Below, piece by piece: positions 1-19,610 of a stretch of DNA of 21,011 nt; position 1 is the first letter of the stretch, and each line of letters starts with the position of its first letter. Below the pieces are notes generated by a model, which was not told where the DNA came from, made no database searches, and saw only the letters and a list, made by a program, of their open reading frames with translations. The DNA is taken from positions 1-21,011 of the IMG/VR virus record IMGVR_UViG_3300045947_000364; one strand, 5' to 3'. A program made the translations under genes and the position numbers. The stretch is from a virus.

Positions 1-1032
1 CGGCTCTACAACTACTGGGTGAGTGCGGAAACCGAAGCCATTGCCCTCGCCCCCCGGGCGCCGTTTATTGGGGCGGAAGGGCAGTTTGAAGGCCATGAAA
101 CCGAGTGGGCCAACGCCAACACGCGCAACTATGCCTACCTGGAGTACACGCCCACCAGTCATGGCGGGCAGCCGCTCCCCCCACCGCAGCGGATGGCGTT
201 AGAGCCCGCGGTCCAGGCCATTACCCAGGCCCGCATGCTGGCGGCCGACGACATAAAATCGGTCACTGGGATATACGATGCAGCCCTTGGGAATCGCAGT
301 AACGAAACCAGCGGCGTGGGCATTCGTGCCCGCAAAACCGAGAGCGATACGGCCACGGCGCATTTCCCGCTCAATTTTACCTATGCCCTGCGCCACTGCG
401 GGGTCATCCTGCTTGATCTCATCCCCAAACTCTACGATCGGGCCACCATCCTGCGCATCATCGGCGAGGACGGCCAGACCCAACAGGTGCCGGTCAACCA
501 GCCCTTTGTCGACAACGAGGGGATCGAGCGCATCTACCGGCTGGGCGTGGGACGCTATGACGTGGTGATCAGTACCGGGGCCACCTATGCCACGCAACGC
601 GAAGAGGCGGTCGACCGCCTCACCCAGCTGGTGCAGGCCTTCCCGCCCCTCCTGCAAGTGCTGGGCGATCAACTGATTCAGCACATGGATTTCCCCGGGG
701 CCCCGGAGATGGCTGAGCGTTTAAAACTCCTCCTGCCGCCTGAGGTGCAGGGCCAGGGGAATCCGGCCCAGATGCAGCAGGCCCTGCAGCAGATGACGCA
801 GCAACTGGAAGCGATCAATGCCTATGCGAAGCAGATGGAAGGGCAAGCGCAGGAGCTGGCGCAGCGCAATCAGGAGTTGGAGTTGCAGGTCAAAGATAAG
901 ACCGAGGCGAACGCGCTGAAGGCCCGGGAGCTGGAGATTGAACGCGAGTACAACGTCTGGCAGGTCGGCCTGAAAGAGCAGGAACTGGCGCTGCAAGCCG
1001 CGCAAATCGCCGGCAATGGGCAGGGAGAATAA
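1..1032 (+). CDS. Portal protein, P22 gp1-like (C-terminal part)
   Basis: The portal is the dodecameric ring at one vertex of the capsid through which DNA is packaged and ejected. The frame is open from base 1 (it reads RLYNYWVSAETE), so the gene starts outside the window; the first in-window start codon, GTG at 19, is not the true start. 343 residues are visible; P22 portal is about 725 aa. Family-typical motifs are NYWVSAETEAIALAP, RSNETSGVGIRARKTESDT, ILLDLIPKLYD and YDVVISTGATYATQREEA, which match the wing/stem/crown part of P22-type portals. From about visible residue 255 it becomes a Gln/Glu-rich coiled coil, a plausible short crown/barrel. The stop at 1030-1032 directly abuts an inverted-repeat element. 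Confident by motif and by synteny with the scaffold and coat genes. Confidence 0.93.
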   Translation, partial: RLYNYWVSAETEAIALAPRAPFIGAEGQFEGHETEWANANTRNYAYLEYTPTSHGGQPLPPPQRMALEPAVQAITQARMLAADDIKSVTGIYDAALGNRSNETSGVGIRARKTESDTATAHFPLNFTYALRHCGVILLDLIPKLYDRATILRIIGEDGQTQQVPVNQPFVDNEGIERIYRLGVGRYDVVISTGATYATQREEAVDRLTQLVQAFPPLLQVLGDQLIQHMDFPGAPEMAERLKLLLPPEVQGQGNPAQMQQALQQMTQQLEAINAYAKQMEGQAQELAQRNQELELQVKDKTEANALKARELEIEREYNVWQVGLKEQELALQAAQIAGNGQGE

Positions 1033-1126
1033 TGCACAATGCATAATGGAAAATTGAGAATGATAAGAGCATTTTTAAGTCATTGTGCATTCTCCATTGT
1101 GCATTCTCCATTTGCTCCGAAGGAGC
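1031..1126. repeat. Heptanucleotide inverted-repeat element, copy 1
   Basis: Left arm 1031-1062 is four 7-bp units (AATGCAC, AATGCAT, AATGGAA, AATTGAG) plus AATG. The centre is 1063-1080 (begins ATAAGAGC). The right arm 1081-1112 is the inverse orientation (ATTGTGC, ATTCTCC, ATTGTGC, ATTCTCC, ATT). The arms can pair along most of their 32 nt. A short perfect hairpin follows (GCTCC-GAA-GGAGC, 1114-1126). It fills the junction between the portal stop and the 74-aa gene. No transposase and no obvious target-site duplication is present. Confidence 0.9.
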
Positions 1127-1139
1127 AGGAGGGCTAGCC

Positions 1140-1364
1140 ATGCGGGAGGCGGCCGGGCCAGGCCCCTGTTTCTGCTGTCAGATGGAGACGGATCTGGTGC
1201 ACCGATACGACGTGTCGATGACGCTCTGCCCCCCCTGTGCCGACCTGCCGCGCGCCACCCTCGTGCAGCTGGCGATGCTGGGGGATCTGCGGGATAGCGT
1301 CGAGGACATGCGGCGGATGCTCGCACAGCTGGTCGAACATCTGGGCCTTCGGGTGGAGGACTAA
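1140..1364 (+). CDS. Small Cys-rich (zinc-ribbon-like) hypothetical protein, 74 aa
   Basis: Not recognised as a named family. The ATG at 1140 is chosen because AGGAGG (1127-1132) lies 7 nt upstream; a longer frame from 1083 would run through the right arm of the repeat element. Cysteines cluster as CFCC near residue 10 and CPPC near residue 28, a spacing compatible with one zinc-binding knuckle. After that comes an amphipathic helix (RDSVEDMRRMLAQLVEHLG), perhaps for oligomerisation. It sits between portal and scaffold. Function unknown: a small structural accessory or a nucleic-acid-binding protein are both possible. Its ribosome binding site lies at the end of the repeat element. Confidence 0.72.
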   Translation: MREAAGPGPCFCCQMETDLVHRYDVSMTLCPPCADLPRATLVQLAMLGDLRDSVEDMRRMLAQLVEHLGLRVED

Positions 1365-1377
1365 GCATGCCGTTCTC

Positions 1378-1406
1378 TTGACACCCTAACTGCCTCATTT
1401 TAGAAT
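1378..1406 (+). promoter_or_regulatory. Near-consensus sigma70-type promoter
   Basis: TTGACA (1378-1383), a 17-bp spacer, then TAGAAT (1401-1406). All of the -35 and five of six -10 positions match consensus, with optimal spacing. A start near 1413 is predicted. It points along the + strand, antisense to the HNH gene and towards the scaffold gene, and begins 14 nt after the 74-aa stop codon. Activity in the real host is inferred. Confidence 0.62.
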
Positions 1407-1421
1407 TGCTCGCAAACTTTC

Positions 1422-1455
1422 GCGCTCCGCTCGGCGGCCACTGAGCGTTGAGCGC
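1422..1455. other. Imperfect hairpin downstream of the HNH gene
   Basis: GCGCTC and CGCTC (1422-1432) pair with GAGCG and GAGCGC (1443-1455) with a 2-nt TT bulge and a 10-nt loop. In + orientation it would lie about 10 nt into the RNA started by the 1378-1406 promoter. In minus orientation it follows the HNH stop but has no T-run, so it is at best a weak end signal for that gene. Confidence 0.5.
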
Positions 1456-1468
1456 AGCCTTTCACGGC

Positions 1469-2101
1469 TTATGGTGTGCGGCGATTTCTTCGATTGTTAC
1501 AACGGCGATGAGCCAGACGAAGATTGTTGGGGTCATGCGTACCGTTGCGATACCGTGGGATGAGATGATCAATCGATGCGGTCTCCCAATCGACGGTCAC
1601 GGAGCACACGTGACAACTCCATCCATCCCTTTCGGTCAGTAACCCGATGACCATGATCCACAGAATTTTTCCTGGGGCACCTCCATCGCGTTTGGCTCGC
1701 ATGCGATTGCGTTCACGCTCCTTGGCTCGATATTTGTCGCGATAGTCCCTGTCGGTTTGCAAGCGTTCCTTATGTCGTGCCGCTTCTTTCTCTGCAGTGA
1801 GGCAGGCAGGGCACGGGATGGTCTCTGGGCAGGTATGGATACGCGATGGACGCTTCCTGAGACGTGTTTTGTTCCGGTCGTGTTCCTTTGCTTGATACGC
1901 TGGATCACCTTTGATGCGCTGATAGCGTGCTTTCGCGTTCTCGATATTCTTCATGCGGTAGTGTGGCTTTGCGTATCGGTTTCGTGCTTGTTCTTGGAGG
2001 CGTTGCCGATAGGCCGAATCCGTGTGATAGCGTTCCCGTAGCCGTTCAAGACGGGCACAGGCTCTACAAGGCAGTACGGTTGGACAGGTATGTGAGGTCA
2101 T
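1469..2101 (-). CDS. HNH endonuclease with duplicated Cys knuckles (homing-type)
   Basis: A DNA endonuclease of the HNH/McrA-like fold, 210 aa. The C-terminal HNH core shows WSCHVC, then DHLIPRYRNGTHDPNNLRLAHRRCN: two Cys pairs for structural zinc and the D-H...N...H metal/catalytic set. The N-terminal half has two copies of a module starting HTCP-x3/4-PCxAC, each followed by a basic helix rich in R, K and Y (about residues 3-45 and 90-140), likely DNA contacts. The ATG at 2101 is chosen: upstream in-frame codons would translate the terminator region and look non-coding. It is the only minus-strand gene in the head block and is less GC-rich than its surroundings (53% over two 60-nt samples), which suggests a mobile, free-standing homing endonuclease. 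Alternative: a packaging-associated HNH, but those usually lie next to terminase. Confidence 0.88.
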   Translation of the reverse strand: MTSHTCPTVLPCRACARLERLRERYHTDSAYRQRLQEQARNRYAKPHYRMKNIENAKARYQRIKGDPAYQAKEHDRNKTRLRKRPSRIHTCPETIPCPACLTAEKEAARHKERLQTDRDYRDKYRAKERERNRMRAKRDGGAPGKILWIMVIGLLTERDGWSCHVCSVTVDWETASIDHLIPRYRNGTHDPNNLRLAHRRCNNRRNRRTP

Positions 2102-2116
2102 AAGAAAAGTATAGCA
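2101..2116 (-). promoter_or_regulatory. Extended -10 promoter giving a leaderless HNH mRNA
   Basis: Read on the minus strand, TGCTATACT covers 2116-2108, an extended -10 element. Six bases lie between it and the A of the ATG at 2101, so the expected transcription start is the start codon itself. No Shine-Dalgarno precedes this ATG, in contrast to almost every other gene here. There is no good -35 at the right distance. Inference from sequence only. Confidence 0.45.
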
Positions 2117-2197
2117 GAAAAAAAGGGCACACGCTGCTTTTTCTGCTTTATACCCCGCGCCCACACCGGCTGATCCCCGATGGAGCGGCGTGTACTC

Positions 2198-2234
2198 AAG
2201 GCGTTCTCGTGCACGAGCGAGAGCGCCTTTTTTT
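2198..2234 (+). terminator. Intrinsic terminator, + strand
   Basis: The arm AAGGCGTTCTCG (2198-2209) pairs with CGAGAGCGCCTT (2218-2229) with one G-T wobble and an 8-nt loop. It is followed at once by seven T (2228-2234, the first two shared with the stem). On the minus strand no T-run follows, so it is one-directional. It lies upstream of the scaffold gene, inside what should be one late transcription unit. Confidence 0.72.
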
Positions 2235-2250
2235 GTGCCCGTTTCTGGGC

Positions 2251-2290
2251 GCGGGATCACCCCGCTTTCGCCTGGCGGGTTATCCAGGCG
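2251..2290 (+). promoter_or_regulatory. Structured leader of the scaffold gene (two hairpins)
   Basis: Two adjacent stem-loops follow the terminator: GCGGG (2251-2255) with CCCGC (2261-2265), and a perfect 7-bp stem CGCCTGG (2269-2275) with CCAGGCG (2284-2290). The scaffold ribosome binding site AGGAG (2305-2309) begins 15 nt later, 9 nt before its ATG. Role unknown; mRNA stability or translation control are possible. I see no convincing + promoter between the terminator and the gene. Confidence 0.4.
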
Positions 2291-2318
2291 GCTCATCGCC
2301 TCGTAGGAGCGTTATCCT

Positions 2319-3281
2319 ATGCCGATCACCATTCTCAGTTCCCGTGATGGGCCCGAGCCATCTCCCGTTCCCGACCCGGCTGCGCCCTCGCCTCCCGCGA
2401 GCGGTGATCCTGGCGCCTCAGCCCCGCCGCCTGCGCCCCCGGCTGCGCCTGCTCCTGGTGAGGAGGCACCCCCCGAGTCAGCCCCGGATGGTCTTGATCG
2501 ACCCGATGCAACCGAGGACGAGGACGAGGCGGACCGCCCCGAGCCGGTGCCGCGTGGGGTGCAACGCCGCATTGACCGCGAAGTGCGCCGCCGCCATGAG
2601 GCCGAACGCAAAGCCGCCGCGATCGAAGCGCGCCTCCAGATGTACGAACAGGGCTACCAGCGCCCAGACCCGGCGCCCCAGCCGGTGCCGCTGCACCAGC
2701 AACCGGAACCGCGCGAAGAGGACTACCCCTCGCAGCAGGAGTGGTTCAAGGCGGTGCGCGACTGGGACAAGGCGCAACTCAAGCAGGAGTGGGCGTACGA
2801 GCAGCAGCAGGTGCGCCAGCAGCAGGCCGACCAGCAGCGCCAGCAGCTCCTCGTCGAGCAAGCCACGGCAGCCCGGAAGAAGTACGCCGATTTTGACACG
2901 GTGCTGGACCGCCTGCGGGACGTCTATAGCGCCCCAGCGCTGGATGCCTGCGTGCAGGAGAGTGAGCTGGGCGCCGAGCTGGCCTATTACCTGGCGCAGC
3001 ACCCCGACGAGATCCAGCGCCTGAACCAGGTGGCGCAGACCGCCCCCTTGGCCATGGCACGCGAAATCGGCAAGCTGGAGATGCGCTTGAACAGTCCTAC
3101 GAACGGCACGCCCGCCTCTCGTCCCTCGGGGTCCTCGGGGTCTCCCGTCCCACCACCCCCACCACAGCCCGTGTCTGGGGGGAGCCATGGGGCGCCCACT
3201 GACTACCGCGACGACATGAGCCAGGCCGAGTTTGAAGCCTGGCGCCGCCGGGCCCTGGCCCCGATGCGGCCGGCGCGGTAA
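2319..3281 (+). CDS. Scaffolding protein (P22 gp8-like)
   Basis: Directs coat assembly into the procapsid and then leaves; 320 aa (P22 gp8 is about 303). The N-terminus is a Pro/Ala-rich, acidic, disordered arm (residues 10-78). Residues 80-110 are highly charged helix, and 150-190 a Gln/Arg-rich coiled coil. The segment YADFDTVL...ESELGAELAYYLAQHPDEI...AREIGKLEMRL (189-257) is the recognisable phage scaffold domain. The C-terminus, after a Pro/Ser/Gly linker (260-290), has DMSQAEFEAWRRRAL, a small basic helix like the coat-binding end of other scaffolds. It has good ribosome binding site spacing and stands directly before the coat gene, as in P22. It is the first gene after the HNH insertion and terminator. 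Confidence 0.9.
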   Translation: MPITILSSRDGPEPSPVPDPAAPSPPASGDPGASAPPPAPPAAPAPGEEAPPESAPDGLDRPDATEDEDEADRPEPVPRGVQRRIDREVRRRHEAERKAAAIEARLQMYEQGYQRPDPAPQPVPLHQQPEPREEDYPSQQEWFKAVRDWDKAQLKQEWAYEQQQVRQQQADQQRQQLLVEQATAARKKYADFDTVLDRLRDVYSAPALDACVQESELGAELAYYLAQHPDEIQRLNQVAQTAPLAMAREIGKLEMRLNSPTNGTPASRPSGSSGSPVPPPPPQPVSGGSHGAPTDYRDDMSQAEFEAWRRRALAPMRPAR

Positions 3282-3305
3282 TTTCACCGAGGGAGTAGTC
3301 CGAAA

Positions 3306-4526
3306 ATGAATACCCTGCTCACGATCACCCAGGTCACGCGTGAACTGTTGATGATCCTGAAAAACAACATCGTCTTTGCCGAGGGCGCGGATCGGCGCTA
3401 CGAGAATCAATTCGCCGTGGCCGGCGCGAAGATCGGCGATACGCTCAATATCCGGTTGCCGCCCCAATTTACGGTGCAGGATGGCCCCACGCTGGTCGTC
3501 CAAAACTACCTGGAAGAGTCCGTGCCGCTGGTCATTACCTCGCAGAAGCACTGTGATGTGTCGTTCTCCTCGGTGGAACGCACCTTGAGTCTGGATGACT
3601 GGAGTCGGCGGATTGGCACGCCCCAGAGCGTCCAGTTGGCCAACACGGTGGATCGCTCCGGCCTCGAAACCTACGTCGATGTGTACAATTCGGTGCTGTC
3701 GCCCGCCCTCAGTCCCACCACGTCCAAATGGGAGGTGTATCTGTTGGCCGGGGCCCTCCTGGACCAGGAAGGCACGCCGCGCGATGGCCAGCGCTCGGTG
3801 GTGCTGGAGCCGATGGAGCAGGCCCATGTCGTGACCGAAAACAAGGGCCTGTTCCAGCAAGCGACGCAGATCGGCGAGCAATACGTGGCCGGCGAGATGG
3901 GCCGGAGTGCCGGCTTTACCTGGAAAATGGACCAGAACATTGTGATCCATACCACCGGGGCCCGCGGCGGGACGCCCACCGTGACCACCGGCAACCAGAC
4001 GGGCAGCGCGATTGCCACCACCGGCTGGACGGCCGCCGCCGCGCTGCGCCTCAAGAAAGGCGATGTGATTCAACTGGCCGGCGTCTATGCGGTCAACCCG
4101 ATGAGCCGCCAGACCACGGGGCGGCTGCGCGACTTTACCGTGACCGCTGACGTCAGTAGCGACGCCTCCGGCAATGCCACCATCCCGATCAGCCCGGCGA
4201 TCATTCTGGCGCCCGATCCCCGGCAGACGGTGAGCAATGCCGCCGCCGCCTCGGCCCCCATTACCTTCCTCGGCACGGCCAATACGCCCTATGCGCAGAA
4301 CCTGGCCTATCATCGCCGCGCCTTTACCCTGGCCATGGTCGATCTGGTGGAGCCCAACAGTGGCCGCTTTGCCCGGGTCAATGATCCGGATGCGGGCCTC
4401 AGTATGCGGAGTTGGCAGGATAGTGACATCAATACCGATATGCACCCGGCCCGGGTGGATATCCTCTACGGCTGGAAATGTGTCCGGCCCGCCATGGCCG
4501 TGCGCGTGTGGTCCCCACTGAGTTAA
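3306..4526 (+). CDS. Major capsid (coat) protein, P22 gp5 family
   Basis: The HK97-fold shell subunit, 406 aa (P22 coat about 430). The start MNTLLTITQVTRELLMILKNNIVF and the following DRRYENQF...KIGDTLNIRLPPQFTVQDG are typical of the P22_CoatProtein family N-arm and E-loop/P-domain. FSSVERTLSLDDWSRRI and GLFQQATQIGEQYVAGEMG continue the P-domain. Residues about 235-310 (GDVIQLAGVYAVNP...LRDFTVTADVSSDASGNATIPISPAI) look like the inserted beta-rich I-domain of this family. The C-terminus YGWKCVRPAMAVRVWS closes the A-domain. GAGGGAG lies upstream of the ATG. The stop is followed after 1 nt by repeat element copy 2. Confidence 0.93.
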   Translation: MNTLLTITQVTRELLMILKNNIVFAEGADRRYENQFAVAGAKIGDTLNIRLPPQFTVQDGPTLVVQNYLEESVPLVITSQKHCDVSFSSVERTLSLDDWSRRIGTPQSVQLANTVDRSGLETYVDVYNSVLSPALSPTTSKWEVYLLAGALLDQEGTPRDGQRSVVLEPMEQAHVVTENKGLFQQATQIGEQYVAGEMGRSAGFTWKMDQNIVIHTTGARGGTPTVTTGNQTGSAIATTGWTAAAALRLKKGDVIQLAGVYAVNPMSRQTTGRLRDFTVTADVSSDASGNATIPISPAIILAPDPRQTVSNAAAASAPITFLGTANTPYAQNLAYHRRAFTLAMVDLVEPNSGRFARVNDPDAGLSMRSWQDSDINTDMHPARVDILYGWKCVRPAMAVRVWSPLS

Positions 4527-4527
4527 G

Positions 4528-4627
4528 AATGCACAATGGAGAATGGAGAATGGAGAATGAAAAACTCCGAATAGACTCCATAATTCTCCATTATCCATTT
4601 TCAATTTTCCATTGGCTCCGAAGGAGC
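4528..4627. repeat. Heptanucleotide inverted-repeat element, copy 2
   Basis: Left arm 4528-4559: AATGCAC, three AATGGAG units, AATG. Centre 4560-4582 contains the direct repeat ACTCCGAATAG/ACTCC. Right arm 4583-4613: ATTCTCC, ATTATCC, ATTTTCA, ATTTTCC, ATT. Then comes the same GCTCC-GAA-GGAGC hairpin as copy 1 (4615-4627). Here its 3' arm is the only Shine-Dalgarno of the next gene. Located exactly between the coat and 63-aa genes. Confidence 0.9.
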
Positions 4628-4632
4628 AGGCG

Positions 4633-4824
4633 ATGGCTGAACTGATTCTCCCCGAATTTCCGCACTGGTTGCACCATCCGACGGAGCCCTCCCGGCTGTT
4701 TGCCAGCCAGGAGGAGGTCGACGCCGCGCTGGCCCTGAGCCCGCTGTGGCGCGTGCAGGGCTATACGCCGGAGGAGGCGGCCGCGGCGCAGAGTGAGGCG
4801 GCACCGGCGCCGCGCAAGCGGTAA
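4633..4824 (+). CDS. Small conserved-type phage protein between coat and gp4-like genes, 63 aa
   Basis: Reads MAELILPEFPHWLHHPTEP then SRLFASQEEVDAALALSPLW. This resembles short proteins of the type 'yPkwLYhp...v.saeEEaal...W' that often lie beside head-completion genes in phages; function unknown. The ATG at 4633 is chosen over a TTG at 4612 that lies inside the repeat; AAGGAG is 6 nt upstream and sits in the stem of the element's terminal hairpin. The C-terminus is Ala/Glu-rich and ends PAPRKR. Three nt separate it from the next start, so the two are probably translationally coupled. Confidence 0.75.
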   Translation: MAELILPEFPHWLHHPTEPSRLFASQEEVDAALALSPLWRVQGYTPEEAAAAQSEAAPAPRKR

Positions 4825-4827
4825 GCC

Positions 4828-5574
4828 ATGGTGACCGCACGGACGGTGATTCGCCGCAGTCTGCTGCTGCTGGGGGTCATTGCGTCCAGTGAACCCCTGG
4901 TGGCGGATGAAGCGGCAGACGGCCTGAGTAGTCTCAATGCGCTCGTCGAGTCGTGGAGTCTCGAGCGCTGGATGATCTACCACATTCCACGCCTGGACGT
5001 GCCCCTCGTGCCCGGCCAGGCGTCCTATACCTGGGGGCTGCCAGGTGGGCAGATTGCCTCGGTCCGCCCGCTCAAACTTGATGGGGCATTGGTGCGGCTG
5101 GCCAGTACGCCCGAGCTGGATTGGCCGGTGGCGGTGCTCACGCCGATGGAGTACCAGCGCGGCGTTGGCCTGAAGGACCTGGAGAGTACCTATCCGTTGG
5201 CCGTGTCGTATGCGCCGAGCTGGCCGCTCGGCGTCCTGTCCGTGTGGCCGGTCCCGCAGTCCGCCGATACGCTGGGGCTGTTTCCGTGGGTCCCGCTCAC
5301 CGGGTTTGCCTCCCTCGATACGGTGGTGAATCTGCCGCCGGGGTATGAACGGCTGCTGGTGGCCGGGCTCGCCACCGAACAGGCGCCGATGTACGGCAAA
5401 GAGGTGCCGGTCACGATTGCGGCGATGCTCTCAGAGGCCAGAAGCAACGTCAAGCGTCTTAACGCTGTAACACCCGTCCTGGGCTGTGATCCGGCACTCC
5501 AGACCCCGGCGTACGGGACCAGCGATCTCGCCGGCTTCACCAGTGGCGGCATGGATACAGGCTGGGGGAGATAG
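4828..5574 (+). CDS. Head completion / tail accessory factor, P22 gp4-like
   Basis: Binds under the portal ring and builds the tail-neck junction; 248 aa against 166 for P22 gp4, but other family members are longer. Motifs: TARTVIRRSLLLLGVIASSEP, then ADGLSSLNALVESWSLERWMIYH (the classic LN-x-LV-x-SW-x-x-ER helix), SYTWGLPGG, RPLKLDGA, LSVWPVPQ, and LPPGYERLLVAGLATEQAPMYG near residue 170. The last 40 residues are Gly/Ser-rich and variable. No strong own Shine-Dalgarno is visible; the start lies 3 nt after the preceding stop. Synteny (coat, gp4, gp10) agrees with P22. Confidence 0.9.
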   Translation: MVTARTVIRRSLLLLGVIASSEPLVADEAADGLSSLNALVESWSLERWMIYHIPRLDVPLVPGQASYTWGLPGGQIASVRPLKLDGALVRLASTPELDWPVAVLTPMEYQRGVGLKDLESTYPLAVSYAPSWPLGVLSVWPVPQSADTLGLFPWVPLTGFASLDTVVNLPPGYERLLVAGLATEQAPMYGKEVPVTIAAMLSEARSNVKRLNAVTPVLGCDPALQTPAYGTSDLAGFTSGGMDTGWGR

Positions 5575-5582
5575 GCGAGAAT

Positions 5583-5614
5583 AATGCAGCATGCAGAATG
5601 GATAATTGAGAATG
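5583..5614 (+). repeat. Heptanucleotide element, copy 3: left arm only
   Basis: AATGCAG, CATGCAG, AATGGAT, AATTGAG, AATG: the exact 32-nt length and unit order of the left arm in the other copies, with no centre and no right arm after it. The ATG of the last unit is the start codon of the gp10-like gene. It begins 9 nt after the gp4-like stop. Solo arm probably left by deletion, or a partial copy. Confidence 0.82.
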
Positions 5615-7045
5615 GAACTGCCGTTTGCAGGACCTTCCTACCGGTCGCGCAGTCTGGACGTGAGCCCTGACCGCACGATCAACATGGTCAGTGAGCCCGT
5701 CGAGAGCGGCGTGAGTCGCCCGACGCTGGCCCTGTACGGCATTCCGGGCTTGCGCGTGGGCTGGACCCTGCCGCAGGCGCCCATCCGGGGCCTGTACACC
5801 GCCACCAATGGCCGCGTCTGGTGTGTTGCAGGCCGTGGGCTGTACGAAATCACGGCGGCGGGCCAGGGCCTCGCCATGGGGGGATTGCAGTCGTCCTCCG
5901 GCGTGGTGAGTATGACGGATAACGGCCTCATGCTGGCGCTCGTCGATGGGACGCGCGGGTATGGGCTGACCTTTGCCACCAACCGCTTCAGTGTGTTCAC
6001 CGATCCAGACTTCCAGGGTGGGGAGACTATCGGCTTTCTCGATGGCCGCTTTGTGGTCAACATCCCCGGCACGGGCCAGTACCAGTGGAGCGAACTCTAC
6101 AGCCCCGACATTGATGGCCTGGCCTTTGCCACCGCCGAAGCGCGGGCCGATCCGCTGGTGGGCCTGCTGGTGGATCACCGCGAATTGTGGCTGTTTGGCA
6201 CCCAGACGACGGAGGTGCTGTACTCGACGGGCGATCCGTTCACGCCGTTCCAGCGCTTGCCGGCTGGGCTCCTCGAGCAGGGTAGCGTGGGGCCCCATGT
6301 GGCGCGCTCGCTCTCGAATCAGGTGTTCTGGGTCACCAGCAGCCCGCGCGGCGACGGCATTGTGGTCCAGGCGCAGGGCTATCAGCCCCAGCGCATCTCG
6401 ACGCCCCCGGTCGAGTGGGCGCTCAGTCAGTCGAAGCGGCTGCGGGAGGCGGTGGGGATGACCTACACCCAGGAGGGGCATGCCTACTATGGGCTGTATG
6501 TGCCGGACCTGGAGACGAGCTGGTTTTACGACGTAACTTCAAAACAGTGGGCGGAGCGGGGCACGCTGTGGGCCAATAGTCTCCAGATGATCGGCAGTGA
6601 TCCGGTGTTCTATCCCTGGCGGCCCTATGTGCACACCTTTGGCTTCGGGCAGCATCTGGTGGGAAGTTGGGAGACGGGCACGATTTATGAGCTGGCCGCA
6701 GACTGTTACACCGACGCTGAGCGGCCGTTGGTGCGTCAACGCGTCACCCCGGTCCTGCGGCAGGAGCAGGAGTGGCTGCAGGTGCAGCGCTTGCGGGTGC
6801 TCCTTGAAACCGGCGTGGGGCGGGACGGCGGCCAGGAGCCAGGAGTGGAGCCGCAGGTCATGTTGCGCGTGAGCCGCACGAACGGCCATACCTGGGAGAA
6901 TGCCCGCTGGGTGTCGGCAGGCCGGCAAGGTGAGCATGGGCGTACAGCTGAATGGCGCAGGCTGGGGCGGGCGAGGCAATGGTGTTTCGAGGTCACGGTA
7001 TCTGACCCGGTGCCCGTGGCATTTTTTGGTGCGAGTATTGCGTGA
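5612..7045 (+). CDS. Packaged DNA stabilisation protein, P22 gp10-like
   Basis: Forms the hexameric nozzle that plugs the portal after packaging, between gp4 and the needle; 477 aa (P22 gp10 about 472). The whole chain looks like the Phage_stabilise family: SRSLDVSPDRTINMVSEPVE at the start, a run of short beta-blades (IRGLYTATNGRVWCVAG), FLDGRFVVNIPGTGQYQWSEL, ADPLVGLLVDHRELWLFGTQ, TTEVLYSTGDPFTPFQRL, LEQGSVGPHVARSLSNQVFW, and SWFYDVTSKQWAERG. The ATG at 5612 is preferred; a TTG at 5606 adds two residues. No normal Shine-Dalgarno is present because the upstream sequence is repeat arm, which is odd for a needed gene. C-terminal residues 380-470 are more basic and Gly-rich. Confidence 0.92.
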   Translation: MELPFAGPSYRSRSLDVSPDRTINMVSEPVESGVSRPTLALYGIPGLRVGWTLPQAPIRGLYTATNGRVWCVAGRGLYEITAAGQGLAMGGLQSSSGVVSMTDNGLMLALVDGTRGYGLTFATNRFSVFTDPDFQGGETIGFLDGRFVVNIPGTGQYQWSELYSPDIDGLAFATAEARADPLVGLLVDHRELWLFGTQTTEVLYSTGDPFTPFQRLPAGLLEQGSVGPHVARSLSNQVFWVTSSPRGDGIVVQAQGYQPQRISTPPVEWALSQSKRLREAVGMTYTQEGHAYYGLYVPDLETSWFYDVTSKQWAERGTLWANSLQMIGSDPVFYPWRPYVHTFGFGQHLVGSWETGTIYELAADCYTDAERPLVRQRVTPVLRQEQEWLQVQRLRVLLETGVGRDGGQEPGVEPQVMLRVSRTNGHTWENARWVSAGRQGEHGRTAEWRRLGRARQWCFEVTVSDPVPVAFFGASIA

Positions 7046-7058
7046 GGAGGAGTCGACG

Positions 7059-7649: not shown

Positions 7650-7651
7650 CC

Positions 7652-10713: not shown

Positions 10714-10716
10714 TCC

Positions 10717-13578: not shown

Positions 13579-13796
13579 GGGACATAGCCTGCAGCGCGTT
13601 GCCGAGCCAACTCCTTTTCCATAATACGGAGCCGAGTGGGGCCATACTTCTGGAGCATGCTCGTCCGCACCATGCGGGCGATCTTTTCAGGGTCTGGAGG
13701 CGGCGGCGGCGAGAGGCGTTGGGACGTGCTCTCCCAGATGCCATAGAGGGCAGCGCTGAGGAGAGCGATGCAGAGAAACGACAGATCAATACACAT
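13575..13796 (-). CDS. Single-pass membrane protein, 73 aa (end of reverse cassette)
   Basis: Begins MCIDLSFLCIALLSAALYGI, one transmembrane helix at about residues 4-21, then a Pro run (PPPPPDPEKI, 32-41) and a basic helical tail (MVRTSMLQKYGPTRLRIMEK). AAGGAG lies before the ATG at 13796. Last of four minus-strand genes with 1, 10 and 13 nt gaps, so one operon. Its stop codon shares bases with the stop of the 953-aa gene. A small phage membrane protein; superinfection exclusion, holin or spanin-type roles are all possible and none is shown. Confidence 0.72.
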   Translation of the reverse strand: MCIDLSFLCIALLSAALYGIWESTSQRLSPPPPPDPEKIARMVRTSMLQKYGPTRLRIMEKELARQRAAGYVP

Positions 13797-13809
13797 GAGG
13801 CGACTCCTT

Positions 13810-14040
13810 CTAGCGCCGGTGCAGGTCGCGCACCATGGCGGCGATGTGTTCGGCGATCTGGGTAATGCGTTCCGCACTGGCTTCGATGCGTTCCAGGCTG
13901 GCGTGTTGTTCCCGCAAGCCCCGGTTCATATAGCGCACCATCAGGAAAAAGTAGACGAACGTGAGCAGCAGACTCAGGATGGTCAACCCGAGATTGGCGG
14001 CCATCACGTGGAGCAAGAGTTGGAGAATCTGGGTATCCAT
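13810..14040 (-). CDS. Single-pass membrane protein with coiled coil, 76 aa
   Basis: One strong membrane helix (residues about 16-38, LGLTILSLLLTFVYFFLMVR) followed by a basic turn and a short coiled coil (HASLERIEASAERITQIAEH). The arrangement, short N-tail, one helix, charged coiled coil inside, resembles pinholin/class III holin-like or signalling-type small phage proteins, but the family is not recognised. AAGGAGG stands before the ATG at 14040; longer upstream frames are shadows of the secreted-protein gene. Middle of the reverse cassette. Confidence 0.75.
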   Translation of the reverse strand: MDTQILQLLLHVMAANLGLTILSLLLTFVYFFLMVRYMNRGLREQHASLERIEASAERITQIAEHIAAMVRDLHRR

Positions 14041-14050
14041 CCTGGCCTCC

Positions 14051-14326
14051 TTAGCGCCGTGGCACCAGATAGCCCGCGTCGTACGGCGACGTGGGCAGCG
14101 GCGTGTACGGCGTGAGCGGCTGGTGCGTGCCGTACTGGCCGGTATACGGGTTGACGTTGCCCCTGGTACTCCAGTTGTTGGAGGGGTTGCCATCGGGGTA
14201 TGTCCGATAATGCGGCTGCACATACGTGCCATCCCGACGGGTGTAGCCGTTGACGTGCACCTGAGCAGCGACAGTGCTGGCCAGGGCAGTGAGGACGACG
14301 AGCGAGAGGACGAGACGACGGATCAT
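14051..14326 (-). CDS. Small secreted protein with GYTRRDGTYVQPHYR-type motif, 91 aa
   Basis: A clear Sec signal peptide (MIRRLVLSLVVLTALASTVAA, cut expected after A21, VAA|Q). The mature part has VNGYTRRDGTYVQPHYRTYP, then NWSTRGNVNPYTGQYG, a pattern seen in many short bacterial secreted proteins of unknown function ('vnGYtRkDGTYV.PHyRs.p...NWSTkGNvNPyTGk.G'). No enzyme motif. The rest is Pro/Tyr/Thr-rich. AAGGAG lies before the ATG at 14326, which is 1 nt after the stop of the RHH gene. A host-type periplasmic protein in a phage tail block is typical of a moron; it may change the envelope of the lysogen. Confidence 0.85.
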   Translation of the reverse strand: MIRRLVLSLVVLTALASTVAAQVHVNGYTRRDGTYVQPHYRTYPDGNPSNNWSTRGNVNPYTGQYGTHQPLTPYTPLPTSPYDAGYLVPRR

Positions 14327-14327
14327 G

Positions 14328-14489
14328 TTACGACTCCTTGGCGATCGCCTGCGATTGCACCCGGGTCCATTCCATGGTCAGGAGGCGTTGCAGAATCGCG
14401 TATTGTTTTTCGCCGGTCGTGGCTGCGATCAGTCGCAAGAGCCGTAAGGCGTCCGGCTTGATTTTCATATTGACGAGCTTGGCATCCAT
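14328..14489 (-). CDS. Ribbon-helix-helix (Arc/Mnt-type) small regulator, 53 aa
   Basis: Reads MDAKLVNMKIKPDALRLLRL, then IAATTGEKQYAILQRLLTME, WTRVQSQAIAKES. The form is that of the RHH fold: strand LVNMKIK (5-11), helix A PDALRLLRLIAATT (12-25), the turn G26-E27-K28, helix B QYAILQRLLTMEW (29-41). RHH proteins bind DNA as dimers through the strand. GAGGAGG lies 7 nt before the ATG at 14489. First gene of the reverse cassette. A predicted promoter and a palindrome lie just upstream, so autoregulation is likely. P22 has two RHH repressors, Arc and Mnt, at this very map position. Could also be an antitoxin-like protein, but no toxin gene is recognisable. Confidence 0.75.
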   Translation of the reverse strand: MDAKLVNMKIKPDALRLLRLIAATTGEKQYAILQRLLTMEWTRVQSQAIAKES

Positions 14490-14503
14490 ATCAACCTCCT
14501 CAG

Positions 14504-14518
14504 AGGGTATTTTACCCT
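14504..14518. promoter_or_regulatory. 15-bp palindromic operator candidate
   Basis: AGGGTA-TTT-TACCCT, a perfect inverted repeat with 6-bp arms and a 3-bp centre. It overlaps the predicted -10 of the RHH promoter and stands between the divergent RHH and tail fibre genes. Symmetric half-sites suit a dimeric RHH protein; the assignment is inferred. Confidence 0.5.
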
Positions 14519-14538
14519 ATAGCAGTATACATCGGCAA
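14509..14538 (-). promoter_or_regulatory. Promoter of the reverse cassette
   Basis: On the minus strand TTGCCG (14538-14533), an 18-bp spacer, then TAAAAT (14514-14509). Directed into the RHH gene 20 nt downstream. A competing -10-like TATACT lies at 14529-14524. Four of six -35 and five of six -10 bases match consensus. Confidence 0.45.
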
Positions 14539-14565
14539 GTCTGAGGAAACCTTGAGGACTTTTTT
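14537..14565 (+). promoter_or_regulatory. Hairpin plus T-run just before the tail fibre start
   Basis: AAGTC (14537-14541) pairs with GACTT (14557-14561), with an inner AGG/CCT pairing (14544-14546 with 14550-14552), followed by six T (14560-14565) and the ATG at 14568. The likely ribosome binding site TGAGGA lies in the 3' arm. It could be a weak terminator/attenuator or could mask translation initiation. Confidence 0.35.
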
Positions 14566-14567
14566 CT

Positions 14568-17054
14568 ATGCCTGCATCAGGAACACTCGGAATTTACCCA
14601 CGTTTTAGGGCAGACGACCGTGATGGAAACCCGCTTGAAGGTGGTAAGTTATACTCATTTTTATCTGGTACTTCTACTCCTTTAGCACTATATCATGACG
14701 CCCAGCTCACCAGCGAGTGGGAGAATCCTTTAGTGCTCGACTCCTCTGGGGAGGCCACCTATTTTTACGGTCCTGCTACGTATCGCCTCGCCCTCCATGA
14801 CGCCGCCGACGTGCCGCTGTGGGTGATTGACCCGGTGACCGGCACCGGGGGCGGCAGTGCCGGCGCCAGTGCCGGCGTCGGCTGGGGCCAGAACACGGTG
14901 GAGCTGCGTCCGGCCAACGGCGCCGCACAGGCTGCCGCGAGTGTGTTTCCCCCCGACGTGCTGGCCATTGGCCTCACCCTGTGGATTAGCGAGACGTTTG
15001 GCGTCAGTCGCGGGCTCCAACAGGTCGGGATTGGCACCGCGCTCCAGCCCGACCAGTGGGGCGTTCTGCCCACCCTCACGGCGGCGACCGACACCACCGC
15101 GGGCGCCTTTCAGGCGTACAGCGGCCAGCCTCAGCCCACGCCCGGCCTGGTGACGCTCACCGCCTATGGGGGGCTGTTTGACGGGGCCGGGGCGGTCTAT
15201 CTCACCGGGCATTTTTTGACCCTCACCCCGAGTCAGCAGCTCGGCAGTAGTTATGTGCCGCCGGCGGGCGGCGTGGTGCAGCCCCTGCCCCCGGCGACGG
15301 TGGACAGTCCCGGCCTGGTCGAACTGGCCACCGTGCCCGAACACCTGGACGGGCTGCGCGGCGATGTGGTCTGTACCCCGGAGGGGTTGCAGGCCAGGTG
15401 GGACACCCTGCCAGTCATCTCGCCCGCCAGTGAACTCACCGTCGGGATCACGCGCTATGGCACCGACGCCGAGACCGTGACCGGCACGCTGCGCACCGTC
15501 GCCACCCATCCGGCCGGGGTGAAAACCGCCATCAATGACGCCATCAGCGCCTCGGGCGCCACCACCACCACCGGGCTCTGGCGCTTTGAAACCGCCGTAA
15601 GCGGCGCGCCGGCCAGCGGCGATGTGGCGCTCAACCAGACGGATTACGCGCTGGCCACCGAGGTCAGGATCCACAAGACCTCCTCCGGCGGCACCGACAC
15701 CAGCGCCGTCCTGGCCGGCCTCTTGCCGGGCGATGGCATCTATATTCAGGACCGGAACGACTCGACCCGCCGGGCCAGGTATAGCGTCACTGCGGCCGGC
15801 GTGGACCAGGGCACCTGGGTGAGCTTTGCGGTGTCCAACGTGGCGGTAGGCACCGTGGCCCTGGGCAATAACCAGGAAGTCACCGTCACCTTCACCATCG
15901 CCACCAGCCTGCCCCCGGCCACGGAGACGCAGGCGGGGATCACGCGCTACGCCACCGCGGCGGAAACCACCGCCGGCAGTGTCGCCACGGCGGCGGTGAC
16001 GCCGGCGGGGCTGGCGGCGCGGGTGCCGGCCGGCACGGCGCTCAGTGTGGCGCGCTATGCCGCCGGGGGCACGACCCTGGAAGCCAGCCCCACCGTGGTC
16101 ATTGACGCTAGCGGCCGCCTCGGGGTCGGGACCGCCGCGCCGACCAGCGGCCTGCACCTCCAGGGCGAGACGAACCCGGCCTACATTGCGACGATCACCG
16201 CCTACACGGCGACGGCCAACGCGCCGATTCTCGCGATGCAACATGCCGGGGGCACGCCGGGCAGTCCCGCCGTGGTGGCCAGCGGCGCCCGCAGTCTCAA
16301 TGTCTCCGGGAGCGTCTGGGCCCGGGATGCGGGCGATACCACGCACACCTTTGTTGGGGCCGCGCAGGTGCTCTCAGGGGTTGAGAGCGTCGATGCGCAG
16401 GGGCGCATTGGCGCCCATCTGGCCTTCTACACCGCGCCCGGCGGCTCCGCCGCGATCACCGAAAAGTTGCGCTTGACCCAGGCGGGCAACCTGCACGTCG
16501 GCGCCAGTGCCGGCACCAATGCGAGTCGCGTCCTGGCCCTGGGCAGTGGGACGGACCCGACGGCCGCCCATCCCGCCGATGCGGTGCAGCTGTGGGTGCG
16601 CGATCGCGCCGCGATCGCCGGCAAGGGCAGCCTGCTGCTGCGGGCCGAGGACGGGACCCCGCACCTGCTGGGCGATCTCACCGGCCATGGGACCCTGCTG
16701 GAGGCGACGCTGGGCAGTGGGGCCAGCTATCAGGCGCTGAACGTCAAGGGCTCGACGCTCTACGTCGGCCAATCCAGTGTGCAGGAGCGCGCCGTCGCGG
16801 GGGTGACTGCGAGTTTCGTGAGTAGTACGGATGCGACCCGCACCGGGCGCCTCACCGTGAGCGCCTACGATGCCACGGCGGCCCGCGAAGGGCTGCGCGT
16901 GGAGGCGGACGGCAGCGCGGCGCGGATCGGGTTTCTGGGGGCGCTCGCCGTGGCGCGGCAGACGGTGCCGGCGGCGGCGAGCGACGCCACCACGACGCAG
17001 GCGCTGGCCAATAGCCTGCGCACGGCCCTGGTGAATTTGGGATTGTGTGTCTAA
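14568..17054 (+). CDS. Tail fibre protein, 828 aa
   Basis: Receptor-binding fibre, expected trimer. Residues 8-90 are the widespread phage fibre N-terminal attachment domain (YPRFRADDRDGNPLEGGKLY, then SGTSTPLALYHDAQLT, NPLVLDSSGEATYF, YRLALHDAADVPLWVIDPV). Three degenerate fibre repeats follow: DSPGLVELATVPEHLDG (about 246-278), LTVGITRYGTDAETVTG (290-321) and TQAGITRYATAAETTAG (454-486). Between the last two lies a beta-rich domain (335-445, with GDGIYIQDRNDSTRRARYSV). Residues 505-800 are Gly/Ala/Thr-rich beta repeats ending VNLGLCV. The first 130 nt of the gene are much richer in AT than the rest (43% GC at 14581-14700 against 68% at 14881-15000), a sign of domain exchange. Confidence 0.88.
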   Translation: MPASGTLGIYPRFRADDRDGNPLEGGKLYSFLSGTSTPLALYHDAQLTSEWENPLVLDSSGEATYFYGPATYRLALHDAADVPLWVIDPVTGTGGGSAGASAGVGWGQNTVELRPANGAAQAAASVFPPDVLAIGLTLWISETFGVSRGLQQVGIGTALQPDQWGVLPTLTAATDTTAGAFQAYSGQPQPTPGLVTLTAYGGLFDGAGAVYLTGHFLTLTPSQQLGSSYVPPAGGVVQPLPPATVDSPGLVELATVPEHLDGLRGDVVCTPEGLQARWDTLPVISPASELTVGITRYGTDAETVTGTLRTVATHPAGVKTAINDAISASGATTTTGLWRFETAVSGAPASGDVALNQTDYALATEVRIHKTSSGGTDTSAVLAGLLPGDGIYIQDRNDSTRRARYSVTAAGVDQGTWVSFAVSNVAVGTVALGNNQEVTVTFTIATSLPPATETQAGITRYATAAETTAGSVATAAVTPAGLAARVPAGTALSVARYAAGGTTLEASPTVVIDASGRLGVGTAAPTSGLHLQGETNPAYIATITAYTATANAPILAMQHAGGTPGSPAVVASGARSLNVSGSVWARDAGDTTHTFVGAAQVLSGVESVDAQGRIGAHLAFYTAPGGSAAITEKLRLTQAGNLHVGASAGTNASRVLALGSGTDPTAAHPADAVQLWVRDRAAIAGKGSLLLRAEDGTPHLLGDLTGHGTLLEATLGSGASYQALNVKGSTLYVGQSSVQERAVAGVTASFVSSTDATRTGRLTVSAYDATAAREGLRVEADGSAARIGFLGALAVARQTVPAAASDATTTQALANSLRTALVNLGLCV

Positions 17055-17055
17055 C

Positions 17056-17093
17056 GTGACGTCCTCAATGCGGTGTGCGTCACCGGGCACACG
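17056..17093 (+). other. Inverted repeat between fibre and tailspike genes
   Basis: GTGACG (17056-17061) and CGTCAC (17088-17093) form a 6-bp stem with a 26-nt loop, directly after the fibre stop. There is no T-run after it, so it is not a standard terminator. The remaining intergenic bases to 17132 hold only the ribosome binding site GGAGGAGG of the next gene. Confidence 0.3.
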
Positions 17094-17132
17094 ACCGTGC
17101 TGTAGACCTTGAAACAGGAGGAGGCCCGCCCG

Positions 17133-19265
17133 ATGCCCAGTTTTCCGGCGCTGAGCGATCTGACTGCCACCACGCAGGCGCAGTGGGGCGCCTATAGCAC
17201 CGGCTACCTGTGCGGAGCGCAGACCGGCGTGGTCAGTGCGAGTAGCGGAACCACCGTCACCGTCAGCCCCGGGGCGGCCTTTGCGCCGGCGCCCGACAGC
17301 CCGACGCGCCTGGTGGGGTTTGGCGAGGAGGTGCCGCGGGCCCTGACCACGCCGGGCGAGGGCACGTCCTGGCTGGCCGGACGGGTGAGCCCGGCCTGCG
17401 CCCTGGCGGGCTGGACCGGCGTGCCGGGGACGCACTACGCCTGGCTCACGCACCTGGCCCGCCCCGCCGTGCCCCCCGGGGGGGTGCTGCTGGCGCAGGT
17501 GACCGTGAGTGGCGGGGCCGTGACCACGGTGGTCGATTATGCCTGCCGGCGGCTCACCGGCCAGGAGGTCCTCAGTGCGCCCCGCACGGTGCACAGCAGT
17601 GCCCTGTGGGTGGTCGAGCCGGGGGCGCGGCTGCAGGTGGGCAGCGGCGTGACCTTCCTGTTTGGCGGCCAGCTGGTGGCGGGCCGCTATGCGATTTTTG
17701 ACCAGAGCAGTGGCGGCACCTTCAGCTTTGCGCGCGGCGCGGTGGTCTTCCCGGAATGGTGGGGGGCGGTCACCGATGACCCCACGGTCGATAGTGCGCC
17801 GGCGCTGCAGTCCGCCCTCAGTCTGCGCGATGACATGGTGGTCGATTGTGCCCAGGGGGTCTATACGCTGGCCTCGCAGGTGACCGTGCCGCACCTCCAG
17901 GGCTGGATCCTCCAGGGCCAGGGCAAGATGGTGACCACCTTCCGCAGGGCCCCGGGCTACGTGGGCCCGCTGCTCAGCATTGGCTCGATCATGCCGCTGA
18001 TCACCACCGGCGATGTGCAGATCAAAGACCTGGGGTTCGATGGGATCGACAAAGCGGTGGGGGTGATCGGCATCGAGGCCACCCAGATGACGCGCTCCAA
18101 ATACTCGCGGCTGCATTTTACGCAATGCGACGTGGGACTCAAAGAGCATTTCACCGTGACGCAGCTCTATGAACTCCTGACCTTTCAGGAAAACCGCATC
18201 GGCTACCTGCTGATCAACCAGGACCAGGGCGCGACCATGCACACCTGGATCGGCGGGCGCTTTAGCGCCAACCTGCTGTGTGGCCACAGCATTGACGGCA
18301 CCGCCGGGACGGGGCTGATTCGCCGCCTGACGTTTTATGGCACGGTGTTCGAGGCCAATGACGCGCTGGTGCCGGCGGGGGATAATGTCGGCCTGTCGAT
18401 CAAGCGGGCGTTTGCCATCCAGTGTATCAACTGCTGGTTCGAGGGCAACGCCACGCACGTGTATTTGAATAATGCCGGGGCCGAGGCCTCCAACCCCATG
18501 CGCTATATCGAGTTTCGGCACTGCCAGTTCTCGCCGCGCAATATCAACGCGGTGAGCCCGAATAGCTTCCTGTGGGAGGAGGGGATTTCCGGCGATGGGC
18601 AGGGCTCCCTCCTCGAAAACTGCTTCATGCGCGATGGGGTCTATCAGTTCAATCAGAATATCGTGGTGCCCGTCATCGGCTCGACGCTCAACCCCGTGGC
18701 CAGCCTGGCGGGGAATTTCGTCAAAGATGACTTCTTGAACCGGACACGCACCCGCACGCGCGATCCCGCCGCGACTGGCCCGTGGGTGCCCGAGCTGGTG
18801 CGGCGCGAGTTTGGGCCGTATAACGTGGATTTTACGCAGCGCTACGTCAGTATTACGACCACCAGTGATGTGAACCTGGCGATCGACCTGTTTGACCTGG
18901 AGGTCTTCCTCCCCAACGACGGCACCCTGGCCATCTGGGTCTATATGGTCGGCACGCAGGCGGATGCGACCCAGTATGCAACCTATTCGTATGTGGGGAT
19001 CTTCCAGATGCTGGGGGGGGTGGTGGCGGATCCCTTTTTCGAGGCGGAGCTGCATCCCCCGATCGAAACCGCCGGCGCCACGGCCTGGAACGCCGGCTTT
19101 ATCCTCGATGCCGGGGTGGTCAAAGTGGTGGTGAAGGGCGCCCCGGCGCCGACGGAGGTCTACTGGGCGGGGTATCTGCGCGCCACGCGCACGCTGTTTA
19201 CGCCCACGGCGCCCCTGGAGGCGCCGTGGGAAACGGTCGGGGAGTGGCGCCTGCACGACGTCTGA
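17133..19265 (+). CDS. Tailspike, parallel beta-helix (pectate-lyase superfamily), 710 aa
   Basis: Probable glycan-binding or glycan-cutting spike. The ATG at 17133 is chosen because GGAGGAGG ends 8 nt upstream; the TTG at 17109 lies before that site. Residues 1-150 form a beta-rich particle-binding/neck region. VFPEWWGAVTDDPTVDSAPA and LQSALSLRDDMVVDCAQGVY (206-243) are the entry motif of phage right-handed beta-helix spikes ('fGA.gDg.tDDt.Aiq.Al'). Residues 250-520 carry the coil ladder (IKDLGFDGIDKAVGVIGIEA, LHFTQCDVGLKEHFTVTQLY, IEFRHCQFSPRNINAV). The C-terminal 170 residues are a separate beta domain (FDLEVFLPNDGTLAIWVYMV), likely trimerising. The active residues cannot be assigned by eye. 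Confidence 0.87.
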   Translation: MPSFPALSDLTATTQAQWGAYSTGYLCGAQTGVVSASSGTTVTVSPGAAFAPAPDSPTRLVGFGEEVPRALTTPGEGTSWLAGRVSPACALAGWTGVPGTHYAWLTHLARPAVPPGGVLLAQVTVSGGAVTTVVDYACRRLTGQEVLSAPRTVHSSALWVVEPGARLQVGSGVTFLFGGQLVAGRYAIFDQSSGGTFSFARGAVVFPEWWGAVTDDPTVDSAPALQSALSLRDDMVVDCAQGVYTLASQVTVPHLQGWILQGQGKMVTTFRRAPGYVGPLLSIGSIMPLITTGDVQIKDLGFDGIDKAVGVIGIEATQMTRSKYSRLHFTQCDVGLKEHFTVTQLYELLTFQENRIGYLLINQDQGATMHTWIGGRFSANLLCGHSIDGTAGTGLIRRLTFYGTVFEANDALVPAGDNVGLSIKRAFAIQCINCWFEGNATHVYLNNAGAEASNPMRYIEFRHCQFSPRNINAVSPNSFLWEEGISGDGQGSLLENCFMRDGVYQFNQNIVVPVIGSTLNPVASLAGNFVKDDFLNRTRTRTRDPAATGPWVPELVRREFGPYNVDFTQRYVSITTTSDVNLAIDLFDLEVFLPNDGTLAIWVYMVGTQADATQYATYSYVGIFQMLGGVVADPFFEAELHPPIETAGATAWNAGFILDAGVVKVVVKGAPAPTEVYWAGYLRATRTLFTPTAPLEAPWETVGEWRLHDV

Positions 19266-19278
19266 AGGAGGGCTCCCA

Positions 19279-19521
19279 GTGGCGTTGCCCGCCCCGGAGC
19301 ATGCACGTGGCTGGCTCGGCATCCTGCTCTACGTCGTCGAGCGCGGCGGGCCAATTACCCTCTTGTTCACACTGCTGTTTGCCGGGATGGGCATCTGGGG
19401 CCTGACCCGCGAGGTGCAGCGCGTGCACCGCGTCAATACCATCCTGTGGACGCAGCTCCTCGAGGCCCAGCAGGCGCACCTCGAGCTGGCCGCCCGCTGT
19501 AAACCGCTGGACGCGAGATAA
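19279..19521 (+). CDS. Holin-like single-pass membrane protein, 80 aa
   Basis: The GTG start at 19279 has AAGGAGGG 6 nt upstream, overlapping the tailspike stop. One membrane helix (residues about 24-43, GPITLLFTLLFAGMGIWGLT) is followed by a basic amphipathic helix (REVQRVHRVNTILWTQLLEA) and a short tail with one Cys. Size and layout suit a phage holin or a small inner-membrane lysis factor; no family is recognised and no endolysin gene follows. Its stop TAA lies in AAGGAG, the ribosome binding site for the repeat-borne start codons downstream. Confidence 0.65.
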   Translation: MALPAPEHARGWLGILLYVVERGGPITLLFTLLFAGMGIWGLTREVQRVHRVNTILWTQLLEAQQAHLELAARCKPLDAR

Positions 19522-19528
19522 GGAGAAG

Positions 19529-19610
19529 AATGCACAATGCAGAATGGAAAATTGAGAATTATAAGAGCCTTCTTCCGCCATTCTCCATTCTCCATTGTCC
19601 ATTCTCCATT
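19529..19610. repeat. Heptanucleotide inverted-repeat element, copy 4 (translated)
   Basis: Left arm 19529-19560: AATGCAC, AATGCAG, AATGGAA, AATTGAG, AATT. Centre 19561-19579 begins ATAAGAGC as in copy 1. Right arm 19580-19610: ATTCTCC twice, ATTGTCC, ATTCTCC, ATT. It lacks the GCTCC-GAA-GGAGC hairpin. Unlike the other copies it is open in the frame of the following gene, so it is read as protein. Confidence 0.9.

Follow-up and report, generated by a model that had tools for sequence, protein, structure and literature searches.

Bacterial chromosomes are well known to contain small dispersed repeats, but such repeats seem to have been little described in compact phage operons. The GTAG/CGTC REPs are 20–40 nt long and carry an unpaired GTAG or CGTC tag, with a link to RAYTs for the GTAG type (PMC3733652). 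In phages, SAS and ESAS have been found in cluster K mycobacteriophages (PMC3203893, PMC11373665, PMC12699233). Repeats of the heptamer TAACTGA occur in Beggiatoaceae, Cyanobacteria and Bacteroidetes (PMC4679880), and the paired sites of Geobacter metallireducens include class 3, with MTYCTGA repeated five times on opposite strands, and elements of four heptanucleotides (PMC2700814).

The repeat analysed here, whose arms are made of degenerate heptads, lies in a virus record of 21,011 nt, the whole of which is called the window below. The window belongs to the late region of a P22-like podovirus, as its genes for portal (phrog_156), scaffold, P22-type coat (phrog_283) and head closure (phrog_578), together with families for tail fibres and DNA ejection, indicate. 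No DNA-level match to it was found among cultured phages, and among deposited phages no coat protein is more than 42% identical to its own. One contig, G001 (39,930 nt), is near-identical across the entire window, and three contigs from other samples, L147–L149, are about 82–93% identical over much of its first half. At its two ends (L146 and L150) G001 has different forms of the coat region, of which one includes copy 2 of the repeat and the other lacks it, and the contig seems to be a join, made in assembly, of two co-occurring strains. The argument from empty sites is therefore based on L147–L149 and not on the G001 end alone.

Architecture of the heptad elements

Copies 1, 2 and 4, at 1031–1112, 4528–4613 and 19529–19610, consist of two inverted arms of 32 nt, each built of four AATKNAN heptads and a closing AATK, with a loop of 18–22 nt between them. 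The initial annotation had reported four copies and their arms, at these places and at 5583–5614, and this is borne out, as is the 32-nt length of the left arms in copies 1, 2 and 4. The pattern of four AATKNAN units has 12 overlapping matches in the window, all within copies 1, 2 and 4, and none in 100 dinucleotide-preserving shuffles; heptad arrays number seven in the window and zero in 300 Markov shuffles. A chance origin of the pattern is excluded. The copies are 33–39% GC in a window of 65% GC. When copies are defined by BLAST, heptad positions 1, 2, 3 and 6 show 8 deviations in 240, against 49 in 180 at positions 4, 5 and 7. Near-invariance of positions 1–3 and 6 goes beyond what mere tolerance would lead one to expect and suggests either a function or a biased generator.

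The left arm of copy 1 (1031–1062, plus strand; four heptads and AATG) overlaps the stop codon of the portal gene, the TAA at 1030–1032 sharing letters with the first AAT of the element. The loop (1063–1080, plus strand) is followed by the right arm (1081–1112), whose heptads are on the minus strand, and by a 3' module, TGCTCCGAAGGAGCAG (1113–1128, plus strand), a small hairpin with a Shine-Dalgarno core; the next gene begins with the ATG at 1140. Copy 2 is placed similarly, its left arm (4528–4559, plus strand) starting just past the stop codon that ends the major coat gene (3306–4526) and its loop, ACTCCGAATAGACTCC (4560–4581, plus strand), preceding a minus-strand right arm (4582–4613), the module GGCTCCGAAGGAGCAG (4614–4629, plus strand) and an ATG at 4633. 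Copy 3 is a left arm only (5583–5614, plus strand), and the head-closure gene takes its start codon (5612) from the final AATG of this arm. In copy 4 the left arm (19529–19560, plus strand) contains the ATG (19537) of ORF 19537–21009, and both the loop (19561–19578, plus strand) and the right arm (19579–19610, minus strand) are translated, the latter as part of a signal-peptide-like N-terminus.

The 3' module of copies 1 and 2, (T/G)GCTCCGAAGGAGCAG, which forms a hairpin round the Shine-Dalgarno core and is followed by ATG, adds to the initial description, as do four copies of G001 that lie beyond the window: E and F, which are full, and G and H, which are single arms. Two loop families can be distinguished. 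Family A (ATAAGAGC.TT.TT) comprises copies 1, 4 and F, and family B (ACTCCGAATA.ACTCC) copies 2 and E. The common centre start noticed earlier in copies 1 and 4 is ATAAGAGC, and the two copies align at 88% identity over 89 nt. Each copy had also been said to lie between a stop codon and the next start. All eight copies of G001 are indeed at gene boundaries, but the wording fails for copy 3, which contains the next start, and for copy 4, which is coding. Copy E supplies the stop of the preceding gene, and the genes on either side of copy F are convergent.

A TnpB-like gene (L209:10592–11698, minus strand), recognized by a Cas12f1-like TNB domain at 62 bits, lies near half copy G in contig G001. 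An HNH endonuclease gene (window 1469–2293, minus strand) lies between copy 1 and the scaffold gene. Contigs L147–L149 are without alignable sequence across 1129–2268, the region of this endonuclease, and the gene is therefore probably a recent insertion. A strong sigma-70-like match (1378–1406, plus strand; TTGACA-17-TAGAAT, 11 of 12 positions) follows the small gene, and a terminator-like hairpin (2198–2229, plus strand; 13 pairs and a T-run) precedes the scaffold gene.

Gene junctions with and without elements

The position of the elements relative to reading frames was compared with a transplant null, in which each element was removed and put back at a random place in the contig it came from, a procedure that allows for stops inside the element. 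Among 49 phage elements, 29 abut a stop, defined as the end of an ORF of at least 80 codons from −3 to +2 nt of the 5' end of the element (5.7 expected), and 13 have in addition an ATG 0–12 nt past the 3' end (0.2 expected). A stop abuts at least one end (−8 to +2) in 30 of 39 bacterial elements (4.3 expected) and both ends, between convergent genes, in nine (0.1 expected); the phage and bacterial counts alike include some orthologues and are not fully independent, though the excess is far above what kinship could explain.

Comparison with related phages points to a probable gain of elements at three of the window's four sites. Copy 1 is present in all of L147–L149, at 92% identity. Copy 2 is wholly absent from them: in the window the coat stop TAA leads into the element with its GGAG module and then to ATG, in these contigs into GGAGTCTCGTC and then to GTG. 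Copy 3 is likewise missing (L148), and the gene starts with GTG in place of the ATG of the element. Copy 4 is wholly absent from contig L210, in which the same gene begins MSLYVLLLLLLLPRLLLAAPCTHYA; the window version begins MQNGKLRIIRAFFRHSPFSIVHSPFFCLLLLLPRLLLAAPCTHYA. Since the relatives are without copies 2, 3 and 4 at otherwise aligned sites, these copies were probably acquired; loss in the relatives is the less simple account when judged by parsimony.

Copy 4 replaces a signal-peptide start. Translation can be read through from the left-arm ATG by way of the loop and right arm, and all of the N-terminal sequence of ORF 19537–21009 up to the hydrophobic core is translated from the element. 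The product of this gene (plus strand) has a signal-peptide-like start and a weak similarity to chondroitinase B, below the cut-off, which suggests that it may be an exported polysaccharide-degrading enzyme.

A second phage family, that of contigs L011 and L018, offers further filled and empty sites. Its element-free relatives show overlapping or adjacent stop–start junctions, such as GTGA in L180 and TAAGGAAGATG in L206. At one junction the full palindrome occurs in the L183 group and a single arm in L011. Filled sites have in some cases lost 10–25 nt of the old junction as well, so that an insertion can be less than clean. In L178, two junctions of the family have GTAGGGGCGATTCATGAATCGCCCCTAC-type palindromes in place of the heptad element, and these fit the description of GTAG-tagged REPs (PMC3733652). 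Palindromes of the GTAG type (GGGGCGATTCATGAATCGCCCC) are seen in phage contigs at L178:3633, L178:8551 and L024:357, two of them at junctions where a relative has heptad elements.

The initial annotation had pointed to phage and bacterial genomes at large as the place to look for similar arms. Viral contigs contain 21 stretches with the arm pattern and bacterial genomes at least 117, and the titles of the bacterial records name Bacteroidota, Bacillota, Cyanobacteria, Chloroflexota, Acidobacteriota, Planctomycetota, Desulfobacterota, Campylobacterota and candidate phyla; the element architecture occurs in bacteria of at least eight phyla. The palindromic pattern matches 47 viral stretches, and many unrelated phages have exactly four heptads and AATK on each side. 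One such phage, L175, has the same arms and an identical CCATTGGCTCCGAAGGAGCAG module, with a different gene after the element. Among cultured phages in INPHARED, copy 1 has no match, and a search with an L018 element gave two faecal records. A match is also carried by the plasmid of a strain of Parabacteroides distasonis, a culturable bacterium. In 24 bacterial genomes picked because they carry the arm, 13 have the palindrome, with zero control matches. Of 297 Desulfobacterota genomes drawn evenly, only one has it, the genome already known, with 23 pattern matches, some of them overlapping; the distribution is thus patchy.

Loops were also compared with bacterial genomes as a guide to the host, and no close match was found in 301 Chloroflexota and 297 Acidobacteriota genomes. 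Motifs of the TCCGG/TCCGA type occur in nearly all loops of L011 and its relatives, L010, L178, L184 and L020, and also in loops of one Syntrophobacter genome (G019). The likeness is a possible lead, and a lead only, to the host of the L011 phages.

Origin and role of the elements

The proposal that a family of elements is dispersing is upheld. Because the loops are shared in two families, relatives have empty sites and similar arms are widespread elsewhere, the junctions do not hold unrelated sequences of independent origin. The narrower suggestion of spread within one phage's structural operon by gene conversion is rejected, because L175 and many other phages and bacteria, unrelated to this one, share the element.

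We lean, with some reserve, towards a short (~60–105 nt) dispersed element of a REP- or MITE-like kind that survives at gene junctions through translation punctuation of its own. It would consist of two 32-nt inverted AATKNAN arms, a family-specific loop and sometimes a 3' Shine-Dalgarno hairpin module, and would spread within and between phages and bacteria in the manner of REPs and MITEs, as the empty and filled sites, the shared loops and the recurrence of the same module in an unrelated phage lead us to think. It may be found at junctions because only there is it tolerated, and tolerated unusually well because it brings punctuation with it. A stop is formed where AAT follows T, and AATTGA contains one; along AATG units, each frame meets an ATG every 21 nt; a ribosome site could come from GGAG units or from the 3' module, often with the next ATG directly after it. 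These signals are seen in the sequence, and we infer their use by ribosomes. The initial annotation had suggested that ATG in all frames could matter, and this is supported by the arms of copies 3, 4, G and H, which from their sequence appear to provide the start codon of the gene that follows. An imperfect hairpin could form in the mRNA between the stop and the following start, and would probably alter re-initiation, coupling or the ends of the mRNA. Against this reading stand the missing target-site duplication and linked transposase, in the searches described below, the near-invariance of four heptad positions, and the filled sites that lost part of the old junction.

On this account junctions with adjacent or overlapping codons gained inserts of 60–105 nt while both genes stayed open, and one insert, copy 4, became the start of a protein of secreted type. 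The phage thus would offer a concrete case of the rewiring of gene junctions in an operon, and the idea that a repeat gains tolerance by carrying translation signals becomes testable.

A stronger version can be put forward only tentatively. It would see in the element a single class of mobile translation-junction cassette, common to phages and many bacterial phyla, that inserts at overlapping stop–start codons or against stops, splits the junction, brings in a new stop codon, a ribosome site and a start, which may even be that of a signal peptide, keeps the neighbouring genes expressed and is moved by some enzyme.

It is possible, though doubtful, that the arms are instead arrays to which a sequence-specific protein of the phage or its host binds, in mRNA or DNA, where genes begin and end, and that copies accumulate by regulatory selection and not by mobility. 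Left and right arms make different, position-specific choices of unit, and the conserved feature is a strand-asymmetric heptad sequence and not exact pairing. The arms vary independently of one another, and four of the seven heptad positions are almost invariant, as binding sites might be; protein binding has been proposed for the TAACTGA repeats (PMC4679880) and the ESAS inverted repeats (PMC3203893). No candidate protein is at hand, however, and the scatter across phyla, with identical loops and modules in unconnected places, is more easily explained by copying than by convergence of binding sites. Both views can nevertheless hold together.

Another reading, which we consider unlikely, sees in the element a hairpin of the mRNA, placed between cistrons, by which translation is coupled or insulated or 3' ends are protected, its sequence being free as long as a stem forms. 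The interval from stop to start is matched almost exactly by the element, convergent genes flank many of the bacterial copies, and a different palindrome, the GTAG-type REP, stands at two of the junctions in L178. The initial annotation had allowed for a part played by RNA folding, and to some extent folding is seen: copies 1, 2 and 4 fold better than shuffles (z of −4.0, −3.1 and −3.6), but copy 3, with its left arm only, does not fold (z of +0.45). In 17 elements of the L011 family, oriented by coding strand, arms form duplexes with their own partners at a mean of −16.6 kcal/mol, no better than the −18.3 kcal/mol with arms of different elements, where a perfect partner would give −41.5 kcal/mol. 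A conserved exact hairpin is therefore unsupported. Single-arm copies also occupy the same kind of junction, as in L011 where the L183 group has the full element, and the copies contain no terminator-like match of a stem and U-run, so an intrinsic terminator is set aside as well. A comparison with Rfam gave only two chance-level matches, far below the gathering score.

It is very unlikely that no mobile element is involved and that the arrays form spontaneously at AT-rich ends of genes, by slippage over 7 nt and copying templated by a hairpin, with polymerase bias producing the likeness across phyla. In most genomes the long simple repeats of highest abundance are heptanucleotides, for which slippage has been proposed, according to the account of Mrazek et al. 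2007 given in PMC4679880; some bacterial loci indeed have long tandem arrays. Slippage would nevertheless leave unexplained the constant four-heptad arms in unrelated phages, the loop families common to several copies, and the arrival of elements in 65% GC phages at sites that, when empty, have no precursor.

That the element is a phage or host promoter ahead of genes is scarcely credible: it is an AT-rich insert in a GC-rich phage, promoter-like matches are seen on the minus strand of copies 1 and 4 and on the plus strand of copy 2, and ESAS motifs contain putative SigA-like promoters (PMC11373665), but the best sigma-70-like score on the sense strand of G001 and L011-family elements averages 8.5 of 12 against 8.1 in shuffles, not clearly above them, the antisense strand scores higher (9.4 of 12), and some copies lie between convergent genes.

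Comparison with described repeats

Like REPs, the heptad elements are dispersed extragenic palindromes, found mostly after coding regions and scattered across phyla (PMC3733652); here they lie in the gaps of tandem or convergent genes, downstream of coding regions. They differ in their 32-nt arms, in having no GTAG or CGTC tag at either end, and in having no RAYT nearby: in six element-bearing genomes, none of 28 Y1_Tnp loci has heptad arrays within ~1.5 kb on each side, so that a RAYT/REPtron link is rejected. With bacterial MITEs and other small mobile sequences (for instance those of PMC2229807 and PMC2759123) they share short length, inverted terminal arms, many copies, filled and empty sites, and the ability to contribute coding sequence. 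In contrast to MITEs, the arms are degenerate heptads and not fixed terminal repeats. Neither a target-site duplication nor an autonomous partner was found. No duplication flanks copies 1, 2 and 4, none is evident by eye in the filled and empty pairs of the L011/L018 family, and a search that covered the Y1 family revealed no autonomous transposase relative near the copies.

The cluster K repeats offer a likeness within phages. Imperfect inverted repeats lie directly 5' of start codons in many copies per phage, and some then carry a short conserved module with a ribosome site; in some ESAS the right repeat terminates on the start codon. Differences between the arms of ESAS argue against pairing, a conclusion drawn by the authors themselves (PMC3203893), and the arms of heptad elements are likewise unmatched. 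ESAS arms, however, are of 17 nt and not heptads, and ESAS belong to the non-structural half of the genome, with their putative SigA-like promoters (PMC11373665); neither their occurrence in bacteria at large nor their gain at overlapping junctions has been reported. SAS is a 13-bp GGGATAGGAGCCC at the start codon, and the window has only 3-mismatch matches to it, at chance level.

Among heptamer repeats, TAACTGA units lie just 5' of start codons, are patchy over phyla and have been given a translational role (PMC4679880), much like the elements described here. Their unit is a different one, with no match in the window, and they are mostly direct and not inverted, vary in arm length and are undescribed in phages. 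The G. metallireducens sites are also tandem heptads in inverted intergenic pairs, regarded as possible sites for a global regulator (PMC2700814); again the unit differs, the distance within pairs is variable, a single bacterium is concerned and placement at stop codons is unreported. A search of open-licence PMC papers for the unit sequence as a string found no relevant paper, and an earlier description elsewhere is possible.

By analogy, the heptad element would work most like SAS/ESAS and REPs, and the rule by which it is built resembles that of the TAACTGA repeats and of the paired heptad sites of G. metallireducens. It fails one defining feature of each named family that can be tested, and hence lies outside all of them. 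The heptad element appears to be a dispersed intergenic palindromic repeat of a kind not described before.
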